64,000 nucleotides of DNA, taken from contig NC_091135.1 of the NCBI RefSeq assembly GCF_041381155.1, positions 51,412,497 to 51,476,496 on the forward strand, read 5' to 3'. The notes below the pieces were generated by a model that saw nothing but the letters and a program-made list of their open reading frames with translations, did not search any database and was not told the origin of the DNA. The position numbers and the translations under genes were made by a program. Numbering within the stretch: position 1 is the first letter of the stretch; every line of letters starts with the position of its first letter. The stretch is from Argopecten irradians (taxonomy: Eukaryota; Mollusca; Bivalvia; Pectinida; Pectinidae). Below, one piece after another: positions 17,434-55,024 of this stretch.

Positions 17434-19195
17434 TCAGATCCCCCGCCAATGGAGATATCAAAGCTGAAGTAAGTTTGATTTTGGAGACTTATGTGTATGA
17501 AAAAACAAGAGATCCCAGAGGGATCTTGGCGCCCACCAAAGAATGATCTACATCTGACAAAGGAAAGATGGATCTTTTCTCTACTTTTTAAACTTTTTCA
17601 AACATACTACATATAAAATTTGAGACAGATCGCTTCAGTGCCTTTTGAGAAATAGCGGTAACAAACTTCAACTATCAAAATCCAAGATGACTCCTTGGCG
17701 GCCATCTTGTTGATCAATCGGTCCCAAATCACAATATGCACAACTAGGGCCCTAGGGGAACCTACCTGTGAAATTTGAGAAAGATCCATTCAATACTTTC
17801 TGAGAAATAGCGATAATAAGCTTTGAATATAAAAATCCAAGATGGCTGCCTGGCAGCAATTTTGTTGACCGATCGGTCCCAAATCACAATATGCACAACT
17901 AGGGCCCTAGGAGAACCTACATATGAATTTTGAGACAGATCCCTTCAGTACTTTCTGAGAAATAGCAATAACAAACTTTGAATAACAAAATCCAAGATGG
18001 CTGCCTGGCGGCCATCTTGTTAACCGATCGGTCCCAAAATGCAATATGCACAACTAGGTCCCTAGGGGAACCTACATATGAATTTTGAGACAGATCCCTT
18101 CAGTACTATCTGAGAAATAGCCATAACAAACTTTAACTATCGAAATCCAAGATGGCGGCCTGGCGGCCATCTTGTTCACCGATTGGTCCAAAAATGCAAT
18201 ATGCACAACAAGGGCCCTAGGGGAACCTACATATTAAATTTGAGAAAGATACCCTCAGGACTTTTTGAATGGGGATACCTTAACCTTCATGGGACTGATG
18301 ATGGTGGGCTTTGGTGGGCTAAAAAACAGAAGTTGAGCTAAAGAAAGGGATATCAAGTATAATTCAAGTAGAGCGGGGCTGCAATTGTTGAATCAGGTAT
18401 ACAGCCTTGACATTTATATTAAGACTATATACACAAAGATGGGTGGAGTTTTTCAAAGTAACATTTACCATTTACCATGATATTTTCAGCAATGTGTCCA
18501 TGGTAACGGAAAAATTGCAAAAAATGAAAACCTAAAAATAGCAAAAGGTACTACTAGACCATAAAAAGAATGTGTCTATGAAGTTTCGTGGAAATATCTC
18601 TGCTGGTTTTAGAGTTATGCTCCGGAAATGAACCTGCTACAAAAATATGATATTTTCAGCAATGTTTCTATGGTTACAGAAAAAAGCACAAAAAGTGAAA
18701 ACCTAAAAATAGCAAAAGGCACTACTAGACCATAAGAACAATGTGTCTATGAAGTTTCATGGAAACATCTCTGCTGGTTTTAGAGTTGTGCTCCGGAAAC
18801 GATTCTTACACAAAAATCTGCCATTTTCACGATGTTTCTATGGTTACGCAAAAAGTGAAATCCTTAAAATAGAAAAAGGCACTACTAGACCATTAGACCA
18901 ATGTGTCTATGAAGTTTCGTGGAAATATCTCTTCTGGTTTTAGAGTTATGCTCCGGAAACAAACCTGGTACAAAAATATGATATTTTCAGCAATGTTTCC
19001 ATGGTTACGGAAAAAATGCAAAAATTGAAAACCTAAAAATAGCAAAAGGCACTACTAGACCATAAGACCAATGTGTGTATGAAGTTTCGTGGAAATATCT
19101 CTACTGGTTTTAGAGTTATGCTCCGGAAACCATTCGTACGGACGAACGGAACCCATTTGTATATCCCCCGCCAACTTCGTTGGGCGGGGGATAAA
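17434..19195 (+). mobile_element. Helentron/HINE-type element (outer of a nested pair)
   Basis: The 5' subterminal motif ATCCCCCGCCAA (17438-17449) recurs at the 3' end as a hairpin, ATCCCCCGCCAAC TTC GTTGGGCGGGGGAT (19163-19192, one bulged G). The body holds about four units of roughly 165-173 bp, each with TGATATTTTCAGCAATG and a later TTTTAGAGTTATGCTCCGG (about 18478-19130), then a short ACGGACGAACGG tract. A second, unrelated Helentron-type element (17505-18322) sits inside it, near the 5' end. No coding capacity. Confidence 0.65.
17505..18322 (+). mobile_element. Helentron/HINE-type element nested in 17434-19195
   Basis: The 5' end is ACAAGA plus the palindrome GATCCCAGAGGGATC (17511-17525), then GCCCACCAAAG (17531-17541). 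The reverse complement CTTTGGTGGGC lies at 18309-18319, followed by CTAA. Between them are about four 155 bp units with AATCCAAGATGG, GGCGGCCATCTTGTT and ACTAGGGCCCTAGG. The palindromes in each unit and the microsatellite-free 3' end are as seen here; a solo 3' end of the same family at 23925-24035 does carry a GGACGGAC-like tract. Confidence 0.65.
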
Positions 19196-19569
19196 TATCT
19201 GTTTCATGTTACATGAAACATCATAGTTTTGAAAGAACCGCCACAGTCAAGGCCATGTTTCAAACTTTTGGGTAATATCTGAAAACAGGGTTGCATCATG
19301 TGACCAACATCGGTGATACCCTTATAAATCGGAACCTCCCGAGCCATATCATGTGGTCAGTATCGGCAATACCCGTACAGGTCGGAATAGATCGGAACTG
19401 TTCGGAAACTTTCGAGCTATTTTAAATGTGTACACATTAAAAATCAATATTTTAATTTAATTGTTTAATAACTTTTGTCAATTCAAACTTTACAAAAGAC
19501 AGCATAAACTTTGAGAGGCACAGAAAGATATGTAGAACACTTTAAATACTTTTTCTATTCCAACATTCT

Positions 19570-20087
19570 GTATCGCTCACCTGGTTTGTAATGCCAAGTA
19601 ATGTTCTGTAAACAGACTCATTGTTTCTTTTCTGAAGGAATTTTAATATTTACCTCTAATTCCCCTATTGGGACCCGCCCCTCCTGCCCCCAGCTGGTCA
19701 GAGGAAAAATTTTATACAAGCTCTGTTCCCCTTCTCCCAAGGATGTTTGTGGCCATATTTGGTTACAATCCATGCAGAACTCTAGGATAAGTAGCGATTT
19801 ATAGAATTACCTCTATTTCCCCAATTGGGCCCCGCCCCTCCTGCCCCCGGGGGGTCAGAGCCAAAATTTATACAAGTTCTGTTCCCCTTCCACCAAGGAT
19901 CTTATTGGCCAAATTTGGTTACAATCCATGCAGAACTCTAGGACAAGTAGCGATTTATAGGATTTACCTCTATTTCCCCTGTTGGGCCCTGCCCCTCCTA
20001 CCCCCGGGGGGTCAGAGCCAAAAAGTTATACAAGTTCTGTTCCCCCTCCCCAAAGAATGTTTGTGGCCAAATTTGGTTACAATCCAT
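19570..20087 (+). mobile_element. Helentron/HINE-type element, 3'-truncated
   Basis: Same family as 1-610 and 46425-47205. The 5' part GTATCGCTCACCTGG (19570-19584) and the following TTTGTAATGCCAAGTAATG match the copy at 46443 closely. About three 157 bp units follow, and the sequence stops inside a unit at AATCCATTTCACA with no microsatellite or 3' hairpin. The usual ACAAGAGGCCC start is also missing. Confidence 0.68.
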
Positions 20088-21953
20088 TTCACATTTTGAT
20101 ATAGCAATGCGCTCTGGCCCTAAATTAAACCAGCCATCTGTCTGTCATAATGTCTAAGTCTGGTGTCAAGGGCAGAGTATCTCGGGCTAAAAGCATATGT
20201 ATATAAATACTCCTAAATATATATACTATCTGAAAACATTAAAGTGGGTTTTTGAACACATAACTGATGCTAATTATACTATATTATCTGAAACATTAAA
20301 GTGGGTTTTTGAACACATTACTGATGCTAATCATACTGTATAGTATAGAACGTCAAAGTCCTGATTTGAGAGCCAGACCATTTTCGTTTATTCGGAACAA
20401 CCGGTTCGACCGTTGGTTAAAGTCATTATTTCAAGTGCAAAACTTGACATGCAATTTTTTATACAGGCCTGTGAGGGCTTTGTCAAGGCTCGATCGTCTA
20501 ATCAGGCTTAGACACTAACTTTATTTGCTTAGGAGACCTCCGGGCTCCTTTGATGATAAAAGTGGGGGCCCTGGATTTTGATCAAATTAAATATTGATAT
20601 TTTTAATTCTTCTAGAATAATAATATATTGATGAATGAAGTAATTTCTTCCTTTTCGTAGATGTTATGGTTATGTATAACTTTTGAATGATTTATGAACA
20701 ATAAACCATTTAAAATAATGTCATTTGTCTAAGTTGTTTAATTATGTAGTGTTCATTTTAGAAATGATCAAATACAGAAAATAAATAGCAAACAAGACCC
20801 GGGCTAAATCAAAGGTCATTTGGGTCAAAAGTCAGTGTCAAATCTCAAGATTTTGGCTCTATAGATATACAGATATCCCTATGTGTAATAAACAAAAATG
20901 TTGTTGTATAATACACATATTGCACATATATAAAAACATCCATATATCTATAGAGGCAATAGCCTGTGGTGCCTGTAGTTTAATTGCATTATTCATTATT
21001 GACTATTTTTAAGTTGCAAAGTTTTGATTGAATTAGAAAGGAATAGACTGACAATAACTTCTGTGACACGGTTGGGGAATTAGCTGAACTCTTTTAGCTT
21101 CACCGTGACATGCCGTGTACCTTTTAAATATAAAGAGAAGTCTTGAATCAAGTCCAAAGTTTATTGCTGTCGTCAAAACAGTGCGTTACATATGTTTACA
21201 TTTAACAAACAGATGATCTTACATCGAATAATAAAAACACTTCAGAGTAATCAAGCCAATGAAATCGGTCCTTCTAGTCCTTCTGGAAGGACCTTTGCCT
21301 CTTCGTTTTTTCATATATTTGATTACTTTGTTGTATTTCCTGAGAGGTTTTTGTTTTTTTCGCTGGTGGAGGAGTTCCCAACCATCTACTCAAAAACGAC
21401 ATCTTGGAATGTAATCGAAGTCTTTCCGACGCTTATGATAGATAGGAAGGGATTGGATTGTATTTATAACAAGCGTTTCGGTGATGCCGCTAACATCAAA
21501 GATTCACATACTTTATTCGTTCGTTACACGTTTGCGAGAGTGCGACTGAATTATTAGTGCTCGTAGTTAGATCGGTAGACACTCGACATAATGCAAATTC
21601 AGTGGATTACCTGTTCATATTATTATTTTTCTTGTAAAATAGTCAGGGTCCGGCCGGGCCACAAACTGCAGACAATCAGGGGGCCCGTAGCAAATTTAAG
21701 GGGCCTCGGGCCCCCGGTCTTACGTTAGTGTCGACGGCTGCTAAATACTATAAAATCACCAGGTCCGTCTTTAATCAATAAACAAACAACTAGTCTAGGT
21801 CCAACCAGTCAAACCGTATAATCGAAAACGGCCCAAGTGTCAACTACATGTTCACGTATGGGAGAATAGCTATAGCCTTCTTTGTCTTGTAAACTTTTTT
21901 TTTAAAAGAATAACGTTGTTGTCTTTTGTTATTTGACAGTACAGGACCGAAGC
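20088..21953. other. intergenic; one short tandem duplication
   Basis: A 57 bp tandem duplication (units near 20235 and 20292, shared word AACATTAAAGTGGGTTTTTG) is visible. An open frame at 21192-21557 (+, 121 codons) has no recognisable domain and lacks identifiable splice partners; I leave it uncalled. Otherwise AT-rich and featureless by eye. Confidence 0.35.
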
Positions 21954-22155
21954 ATAGGTATTAAACTCGTCTGACAATATATGTCACCAGCGTTCTTGGG
22001 TGAAGTCCACCCCTGAACTTGGTGATACTTCACCCAGGGTGAGAGGCCCCTGGTGAAGGTGTGGTGAAGTCAGAGGTAGACTTCACCCTATCCAATGGTT
22101 CACTTGTATTATTATCGTACCAGTATAAATATTGTCAGACGAGTTTAATACCTAT
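21954..22155. mobile_element. 202 bp MITE with 27 bp perfect TIRs
   Basis: The first and last 27 bases (21954-21980, 22129-22155) are perfect inverted repeats; the inner parts begin GGTATTAAACTCGTCTGAC. The bounding dinucleotide TA on each side (ATAGG ... CCTAT) fits a TA target duplication as in Tc1/mariner-type MITEs. The 148 bp middle contains further partial inverted repeats around GGTGAAGTC. Perfect long TIRs suggest a young insertion. No coding capacity. Confidence 0.75.
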
Positions 22156-23381
22156 GGACCTACTCCAACAATGTAAGAGGTATAGCACGACGAAACATTA
22201 CGTCGTGTCTAACAGTCAGCAAAGTAACGTCCGATAAAAAAAAAACGGCTTACCAGTCAACTCTATGTTATGGGAGTACTATGGACCGAACAGGTAAAAC
22301 CGTAGGTGGGCCCTGTGGGTGGGCAGAAACCCCGATACTGTACCAACGAACTGCATGGGTCCAGAATATAACTTAAGATTACACGTATTTTGCAGTCATT
22401 CGCGGCAGCTAACATTCAATATGCGATTAAAACACCAAATACACAATTCCAATTAGGCTTAATAGATTGAGTGCTTTTACCTATTCAATGTGTTCGTTTC
22501 CGTTTCTGGCTTTTCGGGAACAAATAATGCGAGTCTGGATCTCTTAAACGCTTTGAAGCGGTGCAGAATTAAAGTACGCCAATCCCGGACCCGGACCAAA
22601 TTACATACATTTGAAATATTTACTGTACATTGTACTTCAGTACATCCTTGATTCAATTACAACTGCAGTTTTCTAATTTTGTAACTTACGCTGTCATTGT
22701 AATTATCCGAAATATGCATAAATTAACCTAATTGGATTGTTTGTCATTGCCTGTTACTTTTTTACATAGTTTTTTAGTCATAGGCCTATTTACCAACCAG
22801 AATATTGGTATGTTGGCACTTCAGATACATCTTACATATTTTTGTTCAGTGGTTTATAGATGAAAAGCTTTGCAAAAAATGCCTGGCATTTAGGATGGTT
22901 GTCATATTTGATAGTGACTGTAGCTGCAATTATACACAATTTTCATATTTATATTGTATCAAGAATGTATGTATAAGACATACAATTCAAGAATTACCAA
23001 CATTAATCTCTAATCAATAAGTTTGAAAATAATTTGATGAATTTGGTGGTCAAAAAGAACACAAATCATACACTGAACATACTGCAGTATTCCTTTACAG
23101 AGGACTTCGTTTCAAGACCCTTCTTATATACGAAGGGATTAATTTTTGAATTTTCAAAATTCTATTAAATCTAGGAGCTGAGATTTTTAAACCATGTAAT
23201 ACACTTTGAATGGTCTTATGCGATATGTTTCTTCAAAATTGCTTAGTGGTTCTGGATAAGTTGAAATTGTAAATTAATTGTTCACAGAATCAGATTGATG
23301 ATAAATGATAATCAATCTAATTAAGAAGACACTTGTTATTCCACTCCACTATGATGTTCTACGACAGTCAGCGATTTAAGC
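22156..23381. other. intergenic, nothing recognised
   Basis: AT-rich; short open frames without recognisable content. Confidence 0.3.
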
Positions 23382-23692
23382 ACTAGTCCGATGCCTACAA
23401 CTAGTAATTTTATGGGCGGACTAGTGCTAATTGTAATGAACTAGTGCGATTAGACTAGTGGCTTCCCACCCAATTAAAATTGCTATAAAATACTATATCT
23501 GATTTGCAGTGACTATTCAGTCCGGATGCATCATTTTGTTAGAATTTGTGTTCACGAATGCATACAGACTGTACTTTGAGTCAAAAATTGTAAACTGATG
23601 ATGACCAAAGATCTGAAGCAAAACGGCTGTATATTTATTTAGAACTAGTGTTTAAATAGCCTGACTAGTAAAATTTTGGGGTTTACTAGTCC
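23382..23692. repeat. cluster of ACTAGT palindromes
   Basis: Eight ACTAGT hexamers occur in about 310 bp, mostly in the context (G/C)ACTAGT(C/G/A). There is no clear fixed spacing, so this is not a simple tandem array. It may be a decayed element built of short inverted words. Confidence 0.45.
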
Positions 23693-23924
23693 ACTAAAGG
23701 ACTAACAGTAAAAAAAGTTAACGTCACAGACTGCTACGATATACACTCCAATACAAGATCTAATAATTCCCCATTCAGGGTCACCTCAGTATGACCCCTA
23801 TGTTTAGCTAATCAGTGTCGCCTATGAAATCTTCAGTGTGATTTAATCTCAAGGAAGTGTAAACAGCTACTACATAATACATCCCGAGATGTTCCGATTC
23901 TAGGCCAGAGGTCATCCTGAGACA

Positions 23925-24035
23925 TATCCCGTCAGTACTTTCTGAGAAATAGCGATAGCAAGAATTGTTAACAGACGGACTGGCGGACGTACGAAAAGCT
24001 ATTTGAATATAGCCCACCATCTGATGATGGTGGAA
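23925..24035 (+). mobile_element. solo 3' end of a Helentron/HINE-type element
   Basis: Contains the last part of a unit of the 17505-18322 family (CAGTACTTTCTGAGAAATAGCGATA), then ACAGACGGACTGGCGGACG and the hairpin CCACCATC TGAT GATGGTGG (24014-24033). Flanking sequence to the left (23770-23925) may belong to it but could not be aligned by eye. Confidence 0.55.
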
Positions 24036-24957
24036 TAAAAATCAAAACAAAAAATCTTAGTTACTTTAAGTGACATTTATCTCAAATTATTTGAAAAAAA
24101 AATAACTGTTCAGTGACAACCAATATCTGAACTTTGTACAGCAGTTTTTTTTTTTTTTTGTTTTTTTTTGTACAAACAAACAGAATGGCTCTCTTATTCA
24201 GTTTTATATTGTCATTTTCAATCAATAACAAGCAAAAAAAGCTGATCTAACATTCCAGTTCAGCAACAATCACAAATGTTTTGGTTTCTATAGAAAATAC
24301 TTACTAGTTTGTGACTGTTTCCATAATGGTTTTTGAATACATTCATTCTCGCTTTATGCAAGGTACATACATCAATCTCTCTCTGGAAAGGCTTTACAAA
24401 CACTTTTTATCAGAGAAGAAAATAATTCTGTTAAAACTTTCAGTAACAAATATGGTAACCAGGTTTAGTCAAAAGTCATACATGCATACACATCTAAACA
24501 CAAACTCAGATAAAGCTCTACATACACATACCAAACTTGTCATACTCAACTATACAAATACATTATCCATTGATTCAAGCTAACAATTAACAAGCTAATA
24601 GAAATAAATAAATAGTATTAAATGTTTAGAATACAGAATATATCTGTGAATATATTGTGTAATTTTCAACAATATCATCAATTTTGCACCAATTAGTTTG
24701 ATGATACTGTTCAAGTTCCAATAGCTAAAACTGAACTCTAAAGATCTAGCCATGGGAAGTAAATTACAGCAGCATTTAGTGATAAACAACATTTTAAACG
24801 TTTAATGGTTTAAGTGAAAAAAAGACCAATGAAATTTTGCTTACAATCTAATAAAAATTTGTGACATTCTCAGTTGTTTAACTGTTTCAAAAACTTCTAT
24901 TAAAAAATGATATAAAATAATGACTGAAAGAGGCTACATGTATATTTAGTGTCTTGT
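24036..24957. other. intergenic 3' of CTCF
   Basis: AT-rich with a poly-T run near 24147-24169. No gene recognised. Part may be CTCF 3' UTR (a minus-strand ATTAAA lies near 24798), but the transcript end is not determined. Confidence 0.3.
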
Positions 24958-28600: not shown

Positions 28601-31600
28601 AAATTTGCATGGATCATGAAATTCGCAAAAGTAAACTGCACATGAAAGAAAGTTGGTTTACAGTATATACAACAGTGATCATCACTGTCTACTTAGCTTT
28701 GTAATCTACATACATATGTATTAATTTATGCAATTAATTTAGAAACACTTCTCATCACAGGGATGATGCCAAGTTTCTAATCAAAGGTCTATAATTATCA
28801 CAGGAATAAAGAATGATTCTCTTAGTGTGTTCATCAACAATGCTAAAATAACATTTCTATTTTATGTTCCAGACGGCTAAAACTTTCTTAATGGTTCTAA
28901 CATGTCTAGAGACTCGAATTCATGCAATTCAAAAAGTAGGTGAAATCATAATGTCCATTCTGGTGAAAAAAAAAAATAAGAAGTAATTTTGACATGTCGC
29001 AATCTAGAGCCAATATTCCTAAGGAAATCTTCTTCTGGACTACACCTCACAACATTTAGTTACATAGTTATTTCCTTTGTCTTATTGCAGACTGACCCAA
29101 TTACCTGATCTCGGTCATCAGTCATTGCCATGAGGACATCTTCTGCATCTTTCTCGTGAGCAAGAGTTTGCAGCTTTGACGTCACTTCCTCCACTCTTCC
29201 ATCTGGATGAACTATGACAATTTTTGGAGTGTTACCTAGCTTCCCTTCTCTCATCTCTGTCAGCAGACTGCCCTGTAGTAGCTGCTCGGCCGTTAATGGG
29301 GATGACAGGCTATCACGTGACCTCCCCTGGCCAGCTAAGTCCTTGTACTGGACGCTGTCAGGATCATGCTGTTGCATGTGACGAATCAGATTGCCCTTAT
29401 GAGCAAACGTCTTGTCACATTCGTCACACTCGTACATTTTGTCTCGTGCCTCCGCTGGACTGTACTCTGGTGAATGGTAGAGGTTGATGTGACGACGCAG
29501 TAGCTGTTTCTGACGAAATGTCTGACCGCACTCCTTGCATTCAAATGGCTTCTCACCTGAAAAAGACCATGGAATTTACATGAACATTTTAGATTTCATA
29601 AACAAAATGTTATTTTTCAAATGATCATATCTAACATATCTTAAATATCTCAAATATTATTGATAAGATTAGAAAAAAAATGTTGTGGCACACAAATAAA
29701 GTTGGTACCATTATAAACGAAATTTATTTCCTTTTTTGAAATTATTGGACTCGCAGACGTATTGACTCACCAGTGTGTGTGAGTATGTGACTCTCAAGGT
29801 GGCGGATTGACTGAGCAGCATAGTCACATTGCTCACACTTGAAGCACTTTTCCCCTTCATGACTTTTCATATGTAACTTGTAGGTGTATCGATCGGGAAA
29901 GGTACTCCCACATTTCTTACAGCACAATGGTTTGGCACTACTGTGTAGCTTTGACATATGGATCTTCAAATCTGTTTTCCGACCACATGTCGTTGGGCAG
30001 AGGTGGCATTGAAACACTGGCTTGTTACCAGAGTGAATAAGTTTATGAGCTTTAAGGCTGTTGCTCTGTGTGAATCGTGCATGGCACACATCGCATTCAT
30101 ATGGTTTCTCTCCTGTATGTATCCGTAGGTGTCGCTTCAATTTGTATGTATCTGGACTCGCATAGTTACAGTGCGGACAGTGGTAAGGGCGCTCACCAGT
30201 GTGTGATCGCATGTGTCTCTTCATTTTACTTAACTCAACACTGGCGTAATCACATTCAGTGCACTTGTGAGGCTTCTCAAATGTATGCTTATAGCGAATA
30301 TGTCTAACAAGTTCCCCTGATGTGGTGAATGCTGCTTCGCATTCCTTACATTTATGCGGCCTTATGCCCGTGTGTGTGTTCACATGATTCTGTAATGATG
30401 CCATTGTTTTGAATCCACGATCACAAATGTTACACTTATGTGGCCGATCCTCTGAGTGGGTTTTCATGTGGCGCATCAACAGGTACCGTTTCGGACTTGT
30501 ATAATCACAATAATGACACATCAGCTGTGCTTGGTGAGTCACAGCTGGCATCGACATACGTTTTGGTACAATTGTTATGACCCTACGAGTACTACCATCT
30601 TCCTGGACGATTTCTTCAACCATTTCTTGAGATTCTTCTTTCATGTCCAGCATAGTGCTCATGTCCAGGTTCAATTGTTTAGGGGAGCCTATACTGTCCT
30701 CCTTATCAGGCTGGGACACAATCAGGACATAACTCATTTCACCGCTGGGGTTCACCTCCGACGGTACTATAGTGACTGTCTGGAAATTATTGTCTCCTGT
30801 GTTCAAAACAATTGAGTTGGGATTATTTTCTCCTTCTGCACCCATGATCTCCATGGACCCCTCCCTGGCCTGAACGGCGACTAGTTGTGGCTGAGTGCTG
30901 TCTGATGAGTTCTGTAAGGCTACCAGCTGTGCTGAATTCAACTCTGTCTGACCAACCTAAATATAAATTCAATCATAAGCAATGTTGCAATGTATCTATT
31001 ACAGACTACAATTTTGCAATAATATTGTGATAGCATTGTATTCTGAATTTTATTTAATTTCAGTCAATGAAATTGGCATCCATGTCATGCATTGTTTTAA
31101 AGTTATTTCCCTTTACCTGCTAGTGTATATGTAGCAGTTTAAACACACGGACGATCAAAATTGAGAACAATATCCAAGTTTGTTTGTGAATAAATGTCAT
31201 GGGAAAAAAAAAGATATTTTATATTGCGACTGTCACTGCATCAAATCTCTGCAAGTGCTTCATTTTATTTTAAAGTATAGGAAAATATCTGACTATTGAA
31301 ACTACATGGCAGCTGAGCGTATAATTAGCAATTGTTATCAACTTGTTGATTTTGTCATCAAATTAACAATAATCCAGTACAGAGGAAAACAATCACATTA
31401 TATTGATAGTCAGATATATTGTTATACCCCTAGTTACAAGTGCAAATTAATATAACTTGTATGTACAGACAGCAAACTACACCAATTTTCAGTTTTTCTT
31501 ACATATGAGCCATGATGATTGTAGATATACTTCCCATTTCAAAGATAGTATTTAATACTATGTGATAAAAGAGTGTAAAGAGTTTACCGTTATAGTCTGT

Positions 31601-38705: not shown

Positions 38706-41149
38706 CGACTATCGATGCACTTACCTCAGAAATAGCGGTAACGTAGCTTACATGAATTTGTGAAACTTTGTGTATTATCTCCTCTCGACTTTTAAATAAA
38801 TCAAGCTTTAGCGAGTGTCTTTTGTAACTTTTAAAAAAATTACTTACGAGTGTTGAATAAATTCCATATCCAATAACCACGAGTCATGTGACCTGTTTCT
38901 ACCACAGTTATATCCGGTGTTAGCCGATATAAATACGACGAGGATAAGGTAGGCCTAACGTGTGTTTGCCAATATATGCAAATAAGATGTAGTGATATTT
39001 ACATCAGCAAAACGGTGCTAATTAATATTCAAAAGTCATATTTTGATAAAGAATCCATTCATATAAAAGTCTTCGAATTGGGAACAACTTTATGATGAAA
39101 TAATTCTCATTTAACGTATTATTCAAGTTACTTTTTCAAGGTTACTCAAAATATAACACTCTTTGTCGGACTATAAAAAACATGCACACGGCAATGCCGT
39201 GCCGTTTACTTCCCGACGCATACTGTACGCTTTTCAACAGCAGTTTGATGTCATGCGGCGATCACAACGTACATTGTAGCGTGACGTCACTCGATTATTA
39301 ATGACTTTGACAAATGACGATGTTGCACTGAGAAATAAGTAGTTCGGTCATAGTTCACCGTGTCAGCCAATCAGAATGTGTACAGAGTTTATACCACGTG
39401 TGGTATACACGTGGTATAAACAAATTGTTAATCAACAGCTGCATCGTTTATCTGATACCCTGAGAGTTGAATAACAGCGCCTATTGTGGTAGAAATCATA
39501 TTCCAAGGTCACGAATAGGTAAGTTCAGATGGTACCGAATAGTTAACATATTGAATAGAATAATGACATGCAACTGACTTAACGTAGCCTACTGAAAATA
39601 TTTGAAATGATGTTTCATCCATGTTGTAATTTATTGCACTATTTCAAAACAGAAAGATATTACTAAGTTTTGCAGACTTTTTCTTGTGGATAATAGGATC
39701 TGTTGTTTGAAACGAAATACTAAATGTTTTGTTTTATAGTAGCAAAATACACGATTTCAATTTAATGTCAATGATTGCGTAGCTTACACTAACACTAATT
39801 TGGTAGTAATTTTTTAAAAATGTTCTATTGTTAATGAATAGGTATCTTCTGAATAAAACTGTTGTTACGGATTAATTTACATTATAATCACAGATACGAT
39901 ACTCGGATTATGGTAACGTATATTACCGAATTTGGTAATTTAAATTACAAATGTACTCGAGTTTTAAATCTTTATTTGCAGAGTTCCAATGGCGAAAGCT
40001 GAGGGGGGGGGGGAACAGTGGTGGGGGGGGGGGGGAAAACAGAAGGCGAGAATGGAACGTAAAAAGCTTATCGAAGGTGTTATGTTATGTGCACTTATAA
40101 TAAATAACAGACAGATTGCTTTAATGTTTAACAAGAGGCCCATGGGCCTTAAAGTCCCATTATGCTTTCACCAAACTTTGCTAAAATATACATTAACATC
40201 CCTTATGAAAGGTTCTTCATTTGGTTTCTTTACAATGAAGATAATTACGCAATAATCAATTAGTAAAGAATTCTTTAAATAGAACGGGTTGATTTGCATA
40301 GTTAAAAATACCTCGTGTATACGTATGTGTTCGATACCCGGATATAGTAAACAAAACGCGCATGGCCGAGACAGAGGGCAGTTTTGAGGAAACGGTGAGC
40401 AATACAATGTTCTATAATTGTTTAGTATATGATACATATTAGAATCCACAGATTATAAATGTGTCCTGTCAAAGGTTACATATAGTTTATATAAAGCTTA
40501 ATACAAAATACGTATTAATCGAAAAATAGTGGATGTAAATAGTGAAATGCATACATGGGGCACCATATAGGGTATTTTATCGTACAAATATAAACACGTG
40601 GCCGTGTCATTTTTGGTGATGATCGGTTGATTTTCTTTCCTCTCGTGTAATAATTTGAGATAAATACAATATTAATCCAAAACTATATATAGATAAATAA
40701 ATACCATGATTCTACTAATCTATTCATAATTTGAGAGTAAGGAGAGAGCACAGTATATCTAAATACTTAGAACATACGTAAAGAGGTGGACTAATAGCTT
40801 ACTATATACATGTATTATAACTGCTTTCTATTTATTCTTTGGATATATTTTATAACGATATTCGTCTATGAAATATGTGATAGTACATGCATGTACATAT
40901 AGATGAAAGATCACTGGAATCGACGCTAGTCGAGATACATCTTATGTTGTATCTATATACCGATACCTGTCGAGATTTCATTTCTATATAATTAACTGCT
41001 GATTAAATGTTTTTCGATTACGTTTCGTGTATTTAGAAAAGGATCATTATATACATCAAGTAGTGATTACCAGGTGCATGAGTCCTAATTATCGTATGGG
41101 CATTTTTAAATATAGGCCTACAATTTTATGTACACGGAGCGAATTAAAC
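38706..41149. other. intergenic; palindrome, poly-G, small Helentron fragment
   Basis: A perfect 14 bp inverted repeat GTTTATACCACGTG / CACGTGGTATAAAC lies at 39387-39421 and carries two CACGTG E-boxes. G-runs at about 40004-40034 (including runs of 11 and 14 G) could form a quadruplex. ACAAGAGGCCCATGGGCCTT at 40131-40150 is the isolated 5' end of a Helentron-type element. TGACGTCA is at 39282-39289. No gene recognised. Confidence 0.45.
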
Positions 41150-42191
41150 TAATCAAAATCAAAACAATTTTTGTAAAGGACCTTAAGACCTTTCTATTTA
41201 TGAAAAGTATTTGTTTCTACCATTTTCAGAATTTCAGAAGAAGATTTTTGAAGTTTTAGCCTATTTGACCCTTTTTTAGCCCTGCCCCTCTGCCCCCAAG
41301 GGGTCGGCCAGAACCAATGTGGATATGATATTAAAATGCTATCTCAGGCTAATAATTCTAACCAAGTTTGACTCGTTTCCAATGAAAATTGAGCAAAAAA
41401 TGCGCATAAATGTGTTTTCCCTATATAAACTATAGTAAACTTAACCCCCTCCCCAGGGGGAAACGTGAGACTCCAGGGTCATATAATTCACAATTTTTGT
41501 AAAGGACCTTAAGACCTTTCAATTTATGAAAAGTATTTGATTCTACCATTTCCAGAATTTCAGAAGAAGATTTTTGAAGTTTTAGCCTATTTGACCCCTT
41601 TTGACCACGCCCCTAAGGCCCCTGGGGGTCAGTCATTGAAAATTTGTTAATAGGATTAAATGGCCATCTCATACTGATAATTCTGACAACATTTGACTCA
41701 TTTCCTATTACAAATGACCAAATAATGCGCAAAAATGTGTTTTCTCAATATAAAGTATAGTAAACTTAACCCCCTCCCCAGGGGGAAACTAGAGACCCCA
41801 GGGTCATATAATTCACATTTTTTGTAAAGGACCTTAAGACCTTTCTATCTATGAAGAGTATTTGCTTCTACCACATCTGTGAGTAGAGAAGAAGATTTTT
41901 GAAATTTTACTCAATTTTACCCCTTTTGGCCCCTCCCACAGCCCCCTGGGGGGTGGGGACCATATAATTCACAATTTTGATTGGCCTTATGCCTTAGAAG
42001 GTTTGTGCAAAATTTCATTGAAATTGCTTCAGCAGTTTTGGAGAAGAAGTCGAAAATGTAAATTGTTTACGGACATACGACGGACGACGCACGACGCACG
42101 ACGCACGACGCACGACGACGGACAAAAGGCGATTAGAATAGGTCACCTGAGACGAAGTAGGTCACCTGAGACTTCGTCTCAGGTGACCTAA
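41150..42191 (+). mobile_element. Helentron/HINE-type element with 326 bp units
   Basis: Three tandem units start near 41164, 41490 and 41815 (AATTTTTGTAAAGGACCTTA), each about 326 bp. Then come an (ACGACGC)n microsatellite at 42077-42122 and a perfect 18 bp terminal hairpin, AGGTCACCTGAGACGAAG (42140-42157) with CTTCGTCTCAGGTGACCT (42172-42189), ending CTAA at 42188-42191. The loop repeats the start of the stem, so two alternative hairpins can form. The 5' end is not resolved; no matching subterminal motif is seen upstream. Confidence 0.65.
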
Positions 42192-46158: not shown

Positions 46159-46423
46159 GTGCCTTTGATTTCGTTGTATGCAGCGACAAGGAAAATGTTT
46201 TCGCCCACATTCATATTCAGGTCACACAATAGCAATGTCAAGGATCATGTCAATTTAACACTCAATCCAACTGTTATCCTCGATGATCAAGGGGTTACTA
46301 TGACTGAGGATAGAGCCACCCCTGGATATGTCATAGCAAACATGGGTGTATTTTTTGGAGATGAAAACATATCATTCACAGGCCTTCATTTGAAGATTAC
46401 AGAGTCAGAAACGCACGACTTAA
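46159..46423 (+). other. unassigned open frame cut by a Helentron-type element
   Basis: The frame from ATG at 46159 encodes a protein-like segment (for example VNLTLNPTVILDDQG, GVFFGDENISFTG) that runs into the element starting about 46424. Beyond the element, 47206-47373 is open for about 55 codons in one frame (SLYLRHMTKLPVSS) and stops at 47374. It may be an exon of an unknown gene split by the insertion, or chance. No domain is recognised. Confidence 0.25.
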
Positions 46424-47205
46424 ACAAGAGGCCCAGAGGGCCCGTATCGCTCACCTGGTTTGTAATGCCAAGTAATGTTCTGAATACAAGTTCATTGTTT
46501 CTTTTCTGAAGGAATTTGAATATTTACCTCTAATTCCCCTATTGGGCCCCACTCTTTCTGCTCCAGGGTGTCAAAATTTATACGAATTCTGTTAACCTCA
46601 AGGATGTTTCTGGCCAGAATTGGTTAGAATCAATGCATAACTCTAGGACAGGTAGCGATTTATAGGATATACCTCTATTTCCCCTATTGGGCCCGCCCCT
46701 CCTACCCCAGGGGGTCAGAGCAAAAAATTATACAAGTTCTGTTCCCCTTTCCCCAAGGATGTTTCTGGCCAAATTTGGTTACAATCCATCCAGAACTCTA
46801 GGACAAGTAGCGATTTATAGGAGTTACTTCTATTTCCCCTATTGGGCCTCGCCCCTCCTGCCCCAGGGGGTCAGGGTCACCATTTTAGCAAAATCTGATC
46901 CCCTTCCCCTAAGGAAGTTTCTGGCCAAATTGGTTGCAATCCATGCAGAACTCTAGGACAAGTAGCGATTTATAGGATTTACCTTTATTACCTCTATTGG
47001 GCCCCGCTCCTCCTGCCCCAGGGGGATCAGGGTCACCATTTATGCAAAATCTTATCCCCTTCCCCTAAGGAAGTTTCTGACCAAATTTTGTTAAAATCCA
47101 TGCAGTATTTAAGACAAGTTGCGATTTAAAGGAAATGTTGACGGACGGACGCCGGACGCCGCGCCATGGCAAAAGCTCACCGGCCCTTCGGGCCAGGTGA
47201 GCTAA
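46424..47205 (+). mobile_element. Helentron/HINE-type element, complete copy
   Basis: The 5' end is ACAAGA plus the palindrome GGCCCAGAGGGCC (46430-46442), then GCTCACCTGG (46449-46458), whose reverse complement CCAGGTGAGC closes the 3' hairpin (47193-47202). Tandem units of about 155 bp carry GTAGCGATTTATAGGA. ACGGACGGACGCCGGACG at about 47140 precedes the hairpin AGCTCACC ... GGTGAGCT, ending CTAA at 47202-47205. Both ends are present, making this the reference copy of the family at 1-610 and 19570-20087. Confidence 0.75.
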
Positions 47206-47761: not shown

Positions 47762-49516
47762 TTAAAAATAGTATTTGCACGATGAAGACGTTTTTCGTTT
47801 ACAGAAACGCGACATTCTTTTCCGAATGCGCTTACAGCACAGTCTTATTTCTCGTCTGAATTTAGAATCCATGAAACCGTACACAATAGGATTCAATGCA
47901 CTATTAAAGAAGTAGAAGTACGTCAGGAAGGAGCTGACGTTAGCGTATTGAGCGATTTGTATCGCTATATTAGGGTTGAATACTTTGACGGTGGAAAATA
48001 TCAAAAAGGGTAGACAGGTTCCGAAGGACAGGGCGGTCACCACAAGGAATATTATACTAAGACGGCGACTCCTTTCTAGCCCGCGATTGACCACCGGAGA
48101 TACTCGGAAGGAAAAGGCACGATTCATTTTGTCAAGACCACTTCCGTCTGCCGGCTTAGCTTTGTGTTCGCTCTCCTCACCATGTTCTTTCTCTTGATCT
48201 AACAACACCCTTGGTGCTCCGTTGATTTCGGCGCCTGTCACTTGCTTTATGTCATTGCCAACTTCAGTTTTATTTGTTTCTGTATCCAGAAATGCATTGA
48301 CTTTAATGTTTTCTGGTGTTTGTTCACCACCACTATTTTCAATTGCACATTTTTCTGTAGTGTGGTTTCGTGTAGATGTACAAGAATCGGTTTTGTGAAG
48401 CTTGTCTGTTACATGATTTACTAGCTGGACCGAATCGTCATCTGAAGAAGGCATATTATCGTCTTCATCTTCAGAATTATACAGACACTCGCAGTCACAA
48501 TCACAGATCTCACCATGTTGTTGATTTTGTTGAATTCCCACTGACATGCTCTCCTCAGAAACAATACTATCCGAATTATCTTTGTTTTCGTATTCACCGT
48601 CTGAATTTGGGTATCTGCTAGAGGTTGATTCTTCTTGCTGAGTATCTTTTCCAACAAATACATCAATAGCATTAATTTTAGCTGGTTTCCCAAGCCCAGT
48701 TCTAGCAATAGTATGTAGTTTGGTATGCCTGCCTATAGTGCTTATGTTTCCATGTTTACATATTGTATTAGTCTTCTGTTTCTGATCTCCAGCATTCGCC
48801 ATTCTAGTCGGAGTATCAACCACACACATCTTTGAACGTTTGATTAGTGTTCTGCCGATTAGGATATAGATTATTAGACAAACCGAGAACGACACGGTAA
48901 AGAGAATACCATTCAGAACCCTTTGGTACGTGGTGAGTGTGGACGATGAGGATTCTTCAGAAATGGTGCAGTCATGTCCAGTTTGGGGACCAGGCCATGG
49001 TATCTCTTTGATACCATATATCCACAGTGCAGGAACAGCCAACAAGAGAAATTCGATAGCACCTACTACTGCACAAATCATGTGAGATTTCTTTGTAGTT
49101 AAACCGGTGCGAAACGGCATGCATACTTTCCAGTACCGCACCGTGGCTATAAAAGTGAGCAAACCAAGTGAAAAAGACGGGAAGAAAACTCCAAATAATT
49201 TTCCTATTTTGCAAAATGCTTCATTTCTAAAAGTCAGGGTACTGTATAAGTCGTACAGTACGAACGGAATTCCTTCAACACTTGACAGAAAGTCCACCGC
49301 AGAGAGCCACAAGACTAGTACCCTGTGGTTACTGTGGGAGAACTTGGTAAAATAAAGGAAGAACGTAAGACTGTTTCCAATCCCACCAACAACAAGAATG
49401 ATGACGAGAAAAACAGTAACAGGCACGAAATGTTCCGCGAAGTACACATATTCTGCATCGTATAGCGATGGGTATGATGTAGTATTGTCAACATCCCCCG
49501 AGTCCGATTCATTCAT
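47762..49516 (-). CDS. class A (rhodopsin-like) GPCR, intronless, long third intracellular loop
   Basis: Seven-transmembrane receptor at the plasma membrane; ligand not predictable, probably a peptide. TM segments lie at about 31-55, 64-88, 104-128, 146-170, 199-223, 485-510 and 523-547. Class A marks: GNS in TM1, LSAVD in TM2, Cys102 at TM3 and Cys183 in the second extracellular loop (disulphide), NPIVY 542-546 in TM7, and Cys560/561 for palmitoylation. The DRY motif is replaced by VRY (126-128), and the TM6 CWxP becomes TCLPF without Trp. Loop 3 spans about 224-484, much longer than usual; it is rich in Ser/Thr and acidic residues (CDCDCEC, SEDEDD) and ends in basic RGLERSRR. N-terminal NES (residue 2) and NTT (residue 11) are N-glycosylation sequons. 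Single exon, ATG start, no signal peptide. Such receptors are expanded in lophotrochozoans; I do not assign a subfamily. Confidence 0.88.
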   Translation of the reverse strand: MNESDSGDVDNTTSYPSLYDAEYVYFAEHFVPVTVFLVIILVVGGIGNSLTFFLYFTKFSHSNHRVLVLWLSAVDFLSSVEGIPFVLYDLYSTLTFRNEAFCKIGKLFGVFFPSFSLGLLTFIATVRYWKVCMPFRTGLTTKKSHMICAVVGAIEFLLLAVPALWIYGIKEIPWPGPQTGHDCTISEESSSSTLTTYQRVLNGILFTVSFSVCLIIYILIGRTLIKRSKMCVVDTPTRMANAGDQKQKTNTICKHGNISTIGRHTKLHTIARTGLGKPAKINAIDVFVGKDTQQEESTSSRYPNSDGEYENKDNSDSIVSEESMSVGIQQNQQHGEICDCDCECLYNSEDEDDNMPSSDDDSVQLVNHVTDKLHKTDSCTSTRNHTTEKCAIENSGGEQTPENIKVNAFLDTETNKTEVGNDIKQVTGAEINGAPRVLLDQEKEHGEESEHKAKPADGSGLDKMNRAFSFRVSPVVNRGLERSRRLSIIFLVVTALSFGTCLPFLIFSTVKVFNPNIAIQIAQYANVSSFLTYFYFFNSALNPIVYGFMDSKFRREIRLCCKRIRKRMSRFCKRKTSSSCKYYF

Positions 49517-50059
49517 ACTGCCCGTTTTGGGTCCCGTTGCTAGTTGCTGTAAATCTATAGTGACCCTTCTCCACAGTAACCTTTCTTAATCATCGTGTAC
49601 TTGTGCTGCCAATGTGATCCCCATCAATGGAAAGACACACTCTCTATACACAGTAACAGTCTGACAGACGGTCCAAAGTGATACTACATCACATTGTGTG
49701 ATTAAGACAATATATGTCAGTAGTGTATTTAAGTATTTTTACAAGACATGTACGTGTAACTTATTGAGGTCAATCATGACTTGCACCTTCCGTTATAATC
49801 TGCTTTGTGGTTTTATATGGTATCCACATAGTCACATCTTAATTTATCGTACCGGTTTGTTCAATGTGTACACATCATGCTGTAATTATATCTATATGCT
49901 TATTTAAAGCTCTAGTGGTAATACACGTATGTTTCAGTTAACTTATGTATTTCTGTTAAATTATGGTTTAATCTGTTCGGTATAGGAGTGAATTCCTCAA
50001 GTTATCGACATTTATGTAGAAAGTTTAAGAAAGTTATTTTTTTCAATGTGAATCTAATA
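49517..50059. other. 5' flank of the GPCR gene
   Basis: Presumably holds promoter and 5' UTR on the minus strand. No specific element could be supported. Confidence 0.3.
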
Positions 50060-50636
50060 TTAAAGGGACTATTCACTCAGGCTAATTCTTTTACATAACC
50101 AATAAGCAAAATATGACATAAATGTATTGTTCTACATTTCTTATGAAACATGTAGCATAAAATATTGACAAATATCACGTCATTGTTTAGTATTTTAATT
50201 GATACCGTTGTAATTACAAATCGTTGATCAATACGATTAAGCAGGTACAATATGTACGCTGTACCCATACCTGAGCCAAAGTCACGCACGTTAAACAAAT
50301 GAACTACATAACCACTGAGGAGGTGATAAAAGGATTTTTTAGGCAAGATAATTCACCTAATAAGGTAAGCACACTACTGTCAGAGCGATTTGAGCGGTTC
50401 TAGACAAAAGATGCATTACTCTACAAGCAAGGGACAGGGTTCGGAATACAGATGTTCGACCACAATGTGTAATGGCGGACAGCGAGCGAGTTTGAACATT
50501 TCGCACGCATTTCACCACCATGGGCTTTTCTGGCATATATCACAGTAAAACCGACTGATGTTATATCCATTAGAACTGGGTTTTTCCAATATATGTACAA
50601 ATTTTAATGTTCTCTTAGACTGAATTGTCCCTTTAA
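50060..50636 (+). mobile_element. MITE, copy 2 (TIR TTAAAGGGAC)
   Basis: 577 bp, ends TTAAAGGGACTATTCA and TGAATTGTCCCTTTAA (15 of 16 inverted match). Same orientation and nearly the same length as 1434-2009, with the interior alignable throughout. Non-coding. Confidence 0.75.
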
Positions 50637-51460
50637 AGAATCTTAGGCACAAAGCATAAAACCTCGAAATTAACTGGTGTCTTGGCGTTATTTTGTTTGC
50701 AATGACTTGTAATTTATTATTTGTTGCAAATTGTTTAGAAATGCGATCAGATAGAGGAGGCCATTTCGAAATGTCAGTAAAAAATCTCCTAGAATGCAAA
50801 TATTGATAAATGAAGCCCCTTATTGAATTGTTCTGGATGTATCAAACTTGTAATTCACGTAATATATACAACTTCTTTAATGTGCAGTGTATATAGATGT
50901 GGAATATGTTATTAATTATTATCAAGTTTTTAGAATATATGGAATTTTATGAATTGGGTCTTAGAAATCTTGTAGAGCAAAATTTAAATTCCGACACGAG
51001 TTTTATAACAACACTTTAAATCAACTCTTTAAGACATTTTTTCCACCGTCCTCGAATCAGGTCGTCATATCATTTTTCCAGGCATCACTTTATTGCCATA
51101 AGATCACAATATATTTTCAGCCAAGAAGATTTATTCGACCTTATTTCAAAATGGCAAAAAGTTCGTAGTTGTATAATTGCAATAATAAGTCGCGGTATGA
51201 GAGAAGAAAATATTCTAGGTATCATAAAATGTTGTAAAACCCTCGCAAAGCCTCATGTTTTACATTTTGTGACCTTGGGTAGAATATCCCTATCCTCCAT
51301 ATCAGGTTATCAACCTATGAAAGAATTTTATATTATCATACGGGCGAAGTCACTGAATATCGGGAGGATTATATGATGAATCTGGTTTACACATTCTAAA
51401 AGCAACAATACAAATACCACAAAAACATATAAATAATTAGTACTAAATTAATAAAATCTT
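50637..51460. other. intergenic, nothing recognised
   Basis: AT-rich. A short minus-strand frame near 50650-50800 has no recognised content. Confidence 0.3.
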
Positions 51461-51595
51461 ACATAGGTCTGTCAAGTGGACAGGAATATCTCAACCCGAG
51501 TAATTTTGGCTAGTCAACCTGAGGCTTGCCGAGAGTTGGCGGCCAATATCTTTCACGAGGGTTAAGATATCCCTGTCCACTTGAGCAACCTATGT
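51461..51595. mobile_element. 135 bp MITE-like inverted repeat
   Basis: Ends of about 36 bp (51461-51496 and 51560-51595) are inverted repeats at roughly 85 % identity; the shared core is CAAGTGGACAGG.ATATCT. The middle is about 60 bp. No coding capacity. Confidence 0.6.
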
Positions 51596-52951
51596 TTGAT
51601 TCGCTTTCTTCCAAACTTTCACGATACATTGTAAACATGCAGTTTTTAGAAACATTTCCATAGCACCGCCATCATAGGAACGTCACAGTGCGTCAAAATC
51701 AATGACGTCGCCAACAATAGAGACCGCATGTATTGATGACGTCACGTCATTGTCTAGGGCGTGTGAACTGTCTTTTCCTTACTCCGATAAAAGAGAGTTA
51801 TCTTTTACCTAGCAACTGCCGGATAACCCTTTCAAGTATGGGAGAAAAGCAGTTATCCTAATTAACATTGAGGCATAAATATATAAATGACAAAGGTCAT
51901 GAGCACACAAAAAGAAAATGTGTATAAGCAATTTTCTTATAAGAATATGAAGTTGTAGTAATTGGTGATTCATTTAATTATGCCGATCACATGTACAGCT
52001 AGGTCGGAAAGTACTGTAGTCATCCGGATGCTCGCCTCACACTTGTACTTATAGTACCCCACTGTCAGTATCATCACCATGTGTCAGCAAGTACACATTG
52101 CAGTGCTTTGTTATATTTTTAAGGATGATCCACAAAATTGAAGAGCCAAGTAACGTGATTAACACGTTTAAAGAATACTATTATTAACTATTCTAATCAT
52201 GATAAAATAATCTTTGTGTAAAATGCATTGCAGTAAAAGGTGCAGTTCAATTGCATTTATGATAAAAATATCGCCCATACGGAAACGTTTATTAACATGA
52301 ACAAAGAAATATTAGCATAAGCAAGCCTCTATGACAAATTAGTATTTTGATCGCAAGTCAACAAGAAGTGAGTACCATATACACTGACTTGGTTATATGT
52401 CTTTATTATACCTCAAGTGAGAATCCTGCATTCTGATTGGTCGAGAGATATTTGGTATTTTACACTATCACACGGCAGGTAACATTAGAACAATAGGAAA
52501 CAATAGCCACGTTCCTAGCAACCTCCTAGCAACGGGTGATAGCGTATTTTTGACAGTGCAAAATATTAACTGCCCGAAAAAGATGCGCACTCGGTTTTTT
52601 TTCGACGCCATCTTTGTTTTTTTGAAGCGACGCTTTGAACGGAAGCCATGAGATTTCAAGCGTCTTCGTGACGTTGCTAATGTTGTAAACAAACGACGGG
52701 ACGAAACATAGTGTCATCCCTCAAAATATCACTATGACAGTGATATCCTCGGGGTGACACTAGGCACTGTCAGCCTCTAATGCAGGTAGTATTTATATAA
52801 AATTAATCAAATACATTTTGACAAACTATATCTATAAATAAAATCATTTTGTGCGTTGGTGAAGACGAAATGAGTTATGTATGTAAAACCGCATGTCTTA
52901 TGTTGATGTGAAAATACATGTTTTATTAAAAAAGGACCACCTGTATATAAC
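51596..52951. other. intergenic; possible repeat at 52340-52790
   Basis: 52347-52394 (TTTTGATCGCAAGTCAACAAG...CTGACTTGG) resembles 62222-62269 next to the foldback element. An 8 bp inverted pair, CCTGCATT / AATGCAGG, lies at about 52427 and 52780 and encloses CTGATTGG (CCAAT) and CCTAGCAACC. TGACGTCA is at 51737-51744. No gene recognised. Confidence 0.35.
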
Positions 52952-55024
52952 AAGAGGCCCATGGGCCTTAACGGTCATCTGACTCATGGCACAAAACAAC
53001 AAAGTCACAGTATAAAGTATTGGTTAACGATTAATATAAACAATACAAGGAACTCCTTAGTTGAATATGTAAGTTTCTGAAAAAGGTAAATGTCGTTTGT
53101 TGAATAAACTTGGTAGCCCTTCATCCAAATATGGTCGAAACCCATTCAAAGATTAATATAAGGAGGAGTCAGATTTTAAAGCCAAATTTCAGCAAAGCTC
53201 CCATTTTGGACCTCGGTCATACTATCCCCATGGGTCTTACCTCGGTCCTGAAATATGATTGTCCTTACCTAAAGTTCCCCATTCTGAATCAATTAAAACC
53301 ACTATAGACCAATTTTCATTGAGATCGGAGACTGAAACCTTAAAACAGGAAGTGGGCCAGCGGCCATCTTGGAATACCAAAATCTTTACGAAAATGTTTG
53401 CATGTTGTTTGACATCAATTAAAACCCCCTACAGACCAATTTTCATTGAGATCGGAGACTGAAACCTTAAAACAGGAAGTGGGCCAGCGGCCATCTTGGA
53501 ATACCAAAATCTTTACGAAAATGTTTGCATGTTGTTCGGCATCAATTAAAACCCCTATAGACCAATTTTCATTGAGATCAGAGACTGAAATCTTAAAACA
53601 GGAAGTGGGCCACCGGCCATCTTGGAATACCAAATTTTTTACGAAAATGTTTGCATGTTGTTCGGCATCAATTAAAACCCCTATAGACCAATTTTCATTG
53701 AGATCGGAGACTTAAACCTTAAAACAGGAAGTGGGCCAGCTAAAATTAAGAAAATTTGCCCTTTTGGGGCCCCACCCCTCAGCCCCTAGGGGTCGGACCA
53801 GGCTCATTTATCATATGATTGTCCTTCCCCAATGATGTTTCACACCAAATATGGATGAAATCCATCCAAGGATGAAGGAGTAGGATTTTAAAGCTAAAAT
53901 TAAGAAAAATTGCCCATTTGGGGCCTCACCCCTAAGCCCCTAGGGGTTGGACCACGCTCATTTACATCAAATATGATTATCCTTCCCCAAAAATGTTTTA
54001 CACTATATATAGATGAAATCCATCCAAGGATGAAGGAGGAGTAGGATTTTAAAGCAAAAATTAAACAAATTTGCCCTTTGGGGGCCCACCCCTCAGCCCC
54101 TAGGGGTTGGACCACGCTCATTTATATAAAATATGATTGTCCGTCCCCAATGATGTTTCACACCAAATATGGATGAAATCCATCCAAGGATGAAGGAGGA
54201 GTAGGATTTTAAAGCTAAAATTAAGAAAATTAGCCGTTTTGGGGCCCCACCCCTCAGCCCCTAGGGGTCGGACCAGGCTAATTTATATAAAATATGATTG
54301 TCCGTCCCAAATGATGTTTCACACCAAATATGGATGAAATCTATTGGTTTGTTTAGTTTTACGTCCTTTTAACAGCCAGGGTCATGTAAGGACGTGCCAG
54401 GTTTGTTGGTGGAGGAAAGCCGGAGTACCCGGAGAAAAACCACCGGTCAGCGGTCAGTACCTGGCAACTGCCCCACATGGGATTCGAACCCGCATCCCAG
54501 AGGTGGAGGGCTTGTGGTAATATGTCGGGACATCTTAACCACTCGGCCACCGCGGCCCCAGGATGAAATCTATCCGAGGATGAAGGAGGAGTAGGTTTTT
54601 AAAGCTAAAATTAAGAAAATTTGCCCTTTTGGGGCCCCACCCCTCAGCCCCTAGGGGTCGGACCAAGCTCATTTATATAAAATATGATTGTCCTTCCCCA
54701 ATAATGTTTCACACCAAATATGGATGAAACCTATCCAAGGATAAAGGAGGAGTAGGATTTTAAAGTTTAAAATAAGAAAATTCGCCCTTTTGGGGCCCCA
54801 CCCCTCAGCCCCTAGGGGTCAGACCAAGCTCATTTATATAAAATATGATTGTCCTTCCCCAATAATGTTTCACACCAAATATGGATGACATCCACTTAGC
54901 GGTTAAGGAGGAGTAGCGTTTTAAAGGAAAAAAGTTTACGCACGACGGACGGCGCACGGCGGACGACGACGGACAAATCACGATGACTATAGGTCATCCT
55001 GACCCTTCCGGTCAGATGACCTAA
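52952..55024 (+). mobile_element. Helentron/HINE-type element with two tandem arrays
   Basis: The 5' end is ACAAG plus the palindrome AGGCCCATGGGCCT (52955-52968), then GGTCATCTGAC (52973-52983). Its exact reverse complement GTCAGATGACC lies at 55011-55021 in the 3' hairpin, which ends CTAA (55021-55024). Two arrays: four units of 126-127 bp (GACCAATTTTCATTGAGATC at 53307, 53434, 53560, 53686), then six or so units of about 160-167 bp (GGGGCCCCACCCCTCAGCCC). A GACGGCGCACGGCGGACG microsatellite precedes the hairpin (about 54939-54974). A SINE interrupts the second array at 54345-54560. No coding capacity. Confidence 0.75.
54345..54560 (-). mobile_element. full-length tRNA-derived SINE with 13 bp TSD
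   Basis: On the minus strand it begins GGGGCCGCGGTGGCCGAGTG (A box TGGCCGAGTGG), has a B box GGTTCGAATCC, then a conserved body (GGCAGTTGCCAGGTACTGAC, CTCCGGGTACTCCGG) and a tail ending AAACTAAACAAACCA. Flanked by perfect 13 bp direct repeats GGATGAAATCTAT (54332-54344 and 54561-54573), so both ends are exact: 216 bp. This body type is widespread in molluscs. It inserted into a tandem unit of the Helentron-type element and is therefore younger. Confidence 0.85.

Follow-up and report, generated by a model that had tools for sequence, protein, structure and literature searches.

Among the published descriptions of HINEs, the non-autonomous Helentrons, the parts drawn upon here give the order, from 5' to 3', of a subterminal inverted repeat (subTIR), a complementary inverted repeat (IR; in DINE-1 and the oyster elements), a microsatellite, central repeats, a second subTIR and a palindrome or stem-loop (PMC4067079, PMC7492417). 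In the Pacific oyster, eleven Cg_HINE elements of differing sequence have been described, several of them with GTCY, GTCC or GTCK microsatellites beside the 5' subTIR (PMC7492417). Here we report on a stretch of 64,000 nucleotides of the Argopecten irradians genome (NC_091135.1, positions 51,412,497 to 51,476,496; the window), which contains four near-complete elements, two that are truncated by the window ends and one fragment (Table 1). They are very probably minus-strand HINEs, trans-mobilised through their ends by a Helentron Rep-helicase-endonuclease protein. Once read on the minus strand they show the published HINE order; the architecture is a known one, and the families are new.

The original prediction had recognized these elements as Helentron-type with subterminal inverted repeats and had placed them accurately within a base or two, and the ends, the arrays and the Rep-helicase-endonuclease partner described below bear out that assignment. 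AACAAG precedes a palindrome at four places (17504, 40130, 46423 and 52949), the ends reading CTAA in the predicted orientation lie at 18322, 42191, 47205 and 55024, and tandem arrays with units of 126-325 bp are situated between them. The layout shared by the families is established in these respects. It is not complete in the window E2 copy, where no ACGG/ACGAC-like microsatellite was seen; in E3, E4 and E5 this microsatellite adjoins the CTAA end, and it is also present in the copy at 1-610. The subterminal motif indeed matches the far end of its own family in E5 (GGTCATCTGAC/GTCAGATGACC), E4 (GCTCACCTGG/CCAGGTGAGC) and E2 (GCCCACCAAAG/CTTTGGTGGGC), but not at 40130. An IR complementary to the 5' subTIR is found in E3, E4 and E5, and another E2 copy reads TTAGCCCATCATCATCAGATGGTGGGCTA (by eye). 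In the genome, AACAAGAGGCCCATGGGCC has 3,451 exact matches against 0 for the reversed control, the pattern AACAAGAGGCCCN{2,5}GGGCCT has 10,500 (control 0), and the three subTIR patterns have 4,567, 3,388 and 2,527 (controls 1, 1 and 0). The combination of ACAAGAG with a palindrome is not due to chance; ACAAGAG by itself is unenriched in the window (10 matches, 8.1 expected).

Table 1. Elements in the window and their parts (positions in the window; all on the minus strand).
Feature	Position	Strand	Remarks
HINE family E2, non-autonomous Helentron	17504..18322	-	ends, array, subTIRs
E2 5' end: TTAG + subTIR GCCCACCAAAG	at 18322	-	
E2 tandem array, 155-bp unit	17607-18268	-	then 3' subTIR
E2 3' terminal palindrome AGATCCC-AGA-GGGATCT (AGATCCCAGAGGGATCT)	17510..17526	-	7-bp stem; DNA fold z -3.2
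E2 3' terminus: CTCTTGTT	ends at 17504	-	
HINE family E3	40130..42191	-	
E3 5' end: TTAGGTCACCTGAG with long hairpin	42138-42191	-	
E3 ACGACGC microsatellite	42077-42117	-	
E3 tandem array, 325-bp unit	41164-41928	-	
E3 3' palindrome AGGCCCATGGGCCT	40136-40149	-	no recognisable 3' subTIR
HINE family E4	46423..47205	-	
E4 5' end: TTAGCTCACCTGGCCCGAAGGGCCGGTGAGC hairpin	far end 47205	-	
E4 GACG-type short microsatellite	about 47139-47162	-	
E4 tandem array, 155-bp unit	46600-47133	-	then 3' subTIR
E4 3' palindrome GGCCCAGAGGGCC	46430-46442	-	then CTCTTGTT
HINE family E5	52949..55024	-	
E5 5' end: TTAGGTCATCTGACC hairpin, ACGGCGGACGAC microsatellite	far end 55024	-	
E5 arrays, units about 160 bp and 126 bp	within 52949..55024	-	then 3' subTIR
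E5 3' palindrome AGGCCCATGGGCCT	52955-52968	-	then CTCTTGTT
E6, 3' end of a further copy: AACAAT + GGCCCAATGGGCC	63672..64000	-	remainder beyond window
E4-family copy, 5' part	1..610	-	truncated by window start; TTAGCTCACCTGG hairpin, GACG microsatellite (518-563), 157-bp array
E4-family fragment	19566..20090	-	3' subTIR and array only, no palindrome, no TTAG end

The orientation of the elements follows from an autonomous relative. A search for the Helitron Rep domain in the same genome (845.8 Mb) gave 104 matches, and two related Rep-gene insertions, on contigs C626 and C376, are 95.6% identical over 2.1 kb downstream. Their common stretch stops at CCAGGTGAGCGATACAGGCCCTCTGGGCCTCTTGTT, which comprises the E4 subTIR, the palindrome and CTCTTGTT and is the reverse complement of the E4-family end, and the flanks diverge beyond it. 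The last 37 bp of the autonomous copy match E4-type HINEs (97.3% identity over 37 bp for the window copy at 46423), while the 2,041 bp preceding them are matched only by the C376 copy (E up to 1e-8, among the genome stretches compared). The C626 gene is a single open reading frame (ORF) of 2,861 aa with its stop 4,009 bp upstream of the 3' end; the ORF was scanned for domains in two pieces, the second of which contains Helitron_like_N (9e-26), PIF1 (5.6e-22) and Exo_endo_phos (1.2e-7). Rep, helicase and endonuclease together are the domain combination reported for Helentrons (PMC4067079). Since no TTAGCTCACCTGG (≤3 mismatches) occurs between the ORF stop and the 3' end, this end does not belong to a nested E4 HINE. 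The palindrome sits at the 3' end, because it lies downstream of the Rep-helicase-endonuclease ORF in the autonomous copy, and the elements are therefore read on the minus strand, which establishes both their orientation and a 3' end common with one autonomous element. The ACAAGAG end as a 5' end is thereby ruled out, and what had been predicted as a 5' palindrome is, with the orientation reversed, the 3' palindrome or stem-loop. Such a structure was already described in HINEs and Helentrons (PMC4067079, PMC7492417), so that the novelty suggested for it does not hold.

Other Rep loci were compared as well. Stretches downstream of three of them (L067-L069) include two, L067 and L068, with E5-type 3' ends, where the element's own end is indistinguishable from that of a nearby HINE; no such 3' end was seen in L069. 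The loci on C13 and C193 (L043) are 99% identical across the 8 kb compared and are probably two haplotypes of one locus, useless for boundaries. A palindrome near the Rep gene on C14 (L039/L040) belongs to a complete neighbouring HINE. At L039 3945-9261 we observed a second Rep-PIF1 lineage, with a 1,180-aa protein and a 597-aa ORF upstream; in this protein no endonuclease domain was detected (Pfam, E up to 0.01).

The 5' end consists of TTAG, the subTIR and its complementary, hairpin-capable IR, and the 3' end of the second subTIR and a short hairpin directly before CTTGTT; on this layout we propose a mechanism. By analogy with Helitron and HUH Rep proteins, Rep would nick the 5' boundary, rolling-circle replication would displace one strand, and the 3' hairpin with CTTGTT would mark the point where the displaced strand is cut. 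The subTIR would confer specificity for a family, which would be why one motif is present three times in the elements of a family, as 5' subTIR, IR and 3' subTIR. Once inserted, copies appear to decay neutrally, young copies carrying palindromes that look perfect and changed copies broken, uncompensated ones, and decay of this kind explains why the broken palindromes are left unrepaired.

Several observations weigh against trans-mobilisation by a Helentron protein. The 5' end of the autonomous element could not be found in C626 or C376, no TTAG-subTIR (≤2 mismatches) was found upstream in either copy, and the homology between them begins beside an E2 HINE inserted in C626. The ends shared by HINEs and the autonomous element are restricted to the 3' end and to E4, so that one autonomous lineage is tied to one family, and no partners were identified for E2, E3 and E5. 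The window E3 copy lacks a 3' subTIR, as GGTCACCTGAG (≤2 mismatches) has no match near 40130; E3-family copies elsewhere in the genome (L006 and L065) do carry it. The palindrome at 63678, predicted to follow ACAAGAG, is preceded by AACAAT (at 63672) rather than AACAAG. Finally, a clean empty site was not found; a partial one, which contains a run of T, covers the 3' junction only. As regards insertion between two T residues without target duplication, elements start with TTAG and end with CTTGTT, and the flanking bases are not uniformly T.

Folded as single-stranded DNA, the 3' ends in the window give z-scores of -3.2 (E2), -3.0 (E4), -1.9 (E5) and -2.2 (E6), and the 5' ends fold much more strongly (E4 -6.2, E5 -4.9, E3 -10.1). 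The hairpin predicted to end in CTAA is thus present in E3, E4 and E5; the window E2 copy (17504-18322) has no 5' hairpin (z -0.07). That the ends are recognized as folded single strands, as was suggested, fits rolling-circle mobility, and we infer by analogy that the 3' hairpin may act as a terminator that is read as single-stranded DNA. The palindrome could instead be bound as duplex DNA by a symmetric protein dimer, with families differing as their proteins differ. Its near-perfect symmetry, the few stem types and the one stem common to several subTIR families would suit such a site, but copies with the same stem have loops of either 2 or 3 letters, which would shift the spacing of the half-sites, and the published accounts of HINEs, in the parts drawn upon, read the feature as a 3' stem-loop (PMC4067079, PMC7492417); a dimer site therefore seems unlikely.

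The central claim of the original prediction was that the palindrome covaries and is kept as a folded strand through compensatory changes. Two contrasts speak in its favor: E2 (AGATCCC/GGGATCT) and the GGCCC copies differ in both arms while each is palindromic, and a lone copy with AAGGCAC/GTGCCTT also differs in both arms. Covariation was tested on copies from the elements' own genome (846 Mb), within families on 100 copies listed for each of the three subTIR patterns, from a single contig. One chance row was removed from the E4 list, a six-row E2 tandem array was counted once, a six-row E5 array of unchanged copies was left uncollapsed, and rows were transcribed by hand; the arms were compared ungapped, and a few indels are thus among the stem-letter changes. 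Among the copies listed, the palindrome departs from the family form in 25 (E4), 26 (E5) and 38 (E2), and stem letters are altered in 15, 24 and 33, respectively, i.e., in 72 among 300 copies. Only one of these 72, an E5 copy (none in E4 or E2), shows a change in both arms that restores a Watson-Crick pair, and in this copy one other pair is broken and another is a wobble pair.

At the fourth pair of the stem AGGCCC/GGGCCT, a C-G pair, both bases are unchanged in 10,500 copies genome-wide; the left base alone is altered in 459, the right base alone in 330 and the two together in 58. After two arrays (16 rows on C12, 11 rows on C15) had been collapsed, 33 double-changed loci remained, 18 complementary and 15 not, against 7.6 and 6.9 expected under independence from the single-change spectra (the first 100 listed of the 459 and of the 330). 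Both classes are about equally in excess (2.4-fold and 2.2-fold), the pattern to be expected if older copies have simply accumulated more mutations. Complementary changes make up 55% of the loci, where 52% are expected (one-sided p 0.47). The left-only rows are imbalanced between strands (179 forward, 280 reverse), which hints at an uncollapsed array in the single-change totals; with up to 101 of them removed, the expectation falls to 48.5% and p becomes 0.30. At the fifth pair, 18 rows represent 17 loci (two identical C6 rows were merged), 10 of them complementary (one-sided p 0.39, with the expectation borrowed from the fourth pair), and the two pairs pooled give 28 of 50 (p 0.35; 0.18 in the most lenient variant). 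Thus, in a test of limited power, compensatory changes are not over-represented at these two stem pairs in the genome copies, and the copies look neutrally decayed; in the window E4 copy, too, the outer A-T pair of the palindrome is broken. An alignment of ten chosen 3' ends points both ways, the share of paired cells (79.7%) being reached by only 12 of 500 shuffles and the covariation score (0.126) lying below the shuffle mean (0.141), and it carries little weight either way, MAFFT having misplaced stems of unequal length. With the palindrome at the 3' end, 1 of 72 and 28 of 50 complementary changes, and the AAGGCAC stem type present in a single genome copy, covariation maintained by compensation appears very improbable. 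This result concerns copies, not selection on active lineages.

Template switching on hairpin intermediates could also generate new symmetric stem types, the arms changing together without selection. Three loci have gained a left G and a right C (two AGGGCCC/GGGCCCT, one AGGGCC/GGCCCT), against 0.4 expected for that class of pair. However, these cases are too few, and they are insertions rather than substitutions, so that we regard this origin, too, as very unlikely.

Between families, two abundant stems were encountered in a search for chosen stem types, and others may exist. GGCCC (10,500 by pattern) is that of E3, E4 and E5 and also occurs in E6; GATCCC is that of E2, with 2,833 matches by a pattern that also admits GGTCCC/GGGACC (100 out of 100 among the matches listed are GATCCC). 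AAGGCAC/GTGCCTT occurs once in the whole genome. Of the palindromes named in the original prediction, four have the GGCCC stem and one has GATCCC. Both arms differ between the two types and the palindrome is kept, as had been noted, but a single contrast, involving two lineages, does not establish covariation between families. Published descriptions already imply that the palindromic form persists while its sequence varies from family to family. A literature search for compensatory Helentron hairpins or covarying Helitron palindromes found no paper in the library consulted, and one by terminal letters found no transposon study, judging by titles. As a rather doubtful extension, the 3' terminator stem might be freely replaceable in active lineages (GGCCC to GATCCC) with CTTGTT fixed, Rep reading the shape of the hairpin and the sequence of its flank, and the two 48-bp satellites made of 3' ends might then be by-products of repeated termination.

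Amplified 3' ends were observed at several places. Arrays of 48 bp extend over L072 1-1228 (G000:C1:9157001-9158228; 25.6 copies within the stretch examined) and L073 33-1396 (G000:C12:11601533-11602896; 28.5 copies); each monomer combines a Helentron 3' end (subTIR-like motif, palindrome, CTCTTGTT) with about 10 bp more, and the two monomers have different sequences and an identical period. At G000:C15:33537734-33543822, AACAAGAGGTCCAGAGGACCT or a close variant of it recurs eleven times in about 6 kb, another local amplification of a 3' palindrome, and at G000:C1:5413596-5431425 a unit of about 3.35 kb, each with an E5 and an E2 3' end, is repeated six times. Paired 3' palindromes about 129-130 bp apart (L068 1384/1514; G000:C1:4475390/4475519 and 6901995/6902124) give the impression of a captured or bypassed 3' end.

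Elsewhere in the window, unrelated sequence breaks into the E5 tandem array at approximately 54347-54555; it contains GGATTCGAACCC, which we take to resemble a tRNA B box, and is perhaps a short interspersed nuclear element (SINE) inserted in the element. A 30-bp satellite, TTTACTGTGCCTTGTGTATGTGCAGTACCC, occupies 59896-61468 with about 52 copies. Four ORFs on the minus strand (8220-12941, 29742-30941, 47762-49516 and 57558-58166) have domain matches, namely to C2H2 zinc fingers (two), a rhodopsin-type seven-transmembrane receptor and a reverse transcriptase fragment.

The comparison matters in that a 3' stem-loop which is already known is not mistaken for a novel 5' structure, and in that changes in HINE palindromes have been measured across a whole genome, with no surplus of compensation. 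If the terminator were shown to be read by its shape, this would reveal how the ends are located by the HUH Rep transposases of eukaryotes.

Canonical Helitrons have a 3' end reading CTRR and insert in AT, and the pearl/CvA elements of bivalves have central tandem arrays of about 160 bp and a microsatellite. The elements in the window differ from canonical Helitrons in a 3' end that reads CTTGTT and a partner that carries an endonuclease domain. They resemble DINE-1, HINE-Mo and Helentrons in their subTIRs, microsatellite, central repeats and 3' palindrome, and in a Rep-helicase-endonuclease partner with common ends, and they share with DINE-1 an IR near the 5' subTIR (PMC4067079). In HINE-Mo, the 3' palindromes lie about 8-35 bp and the subTIRs 38-60 bp from the 3' terminus (PMC4067079), whereas in window E4 and E5 the palindrome lies about 6 nt and the subTIR 24-25 nt from it. 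Cg_HINE is likened to the window elements by description, not by sequence: it has an 11-12 bp 5' subTIR, a complementary IR, in several elements a microsatellite, satellite-like central arrays, and a 3' subTIR with a palindrome after it that could fold into a stem-loop (PMC7492417).

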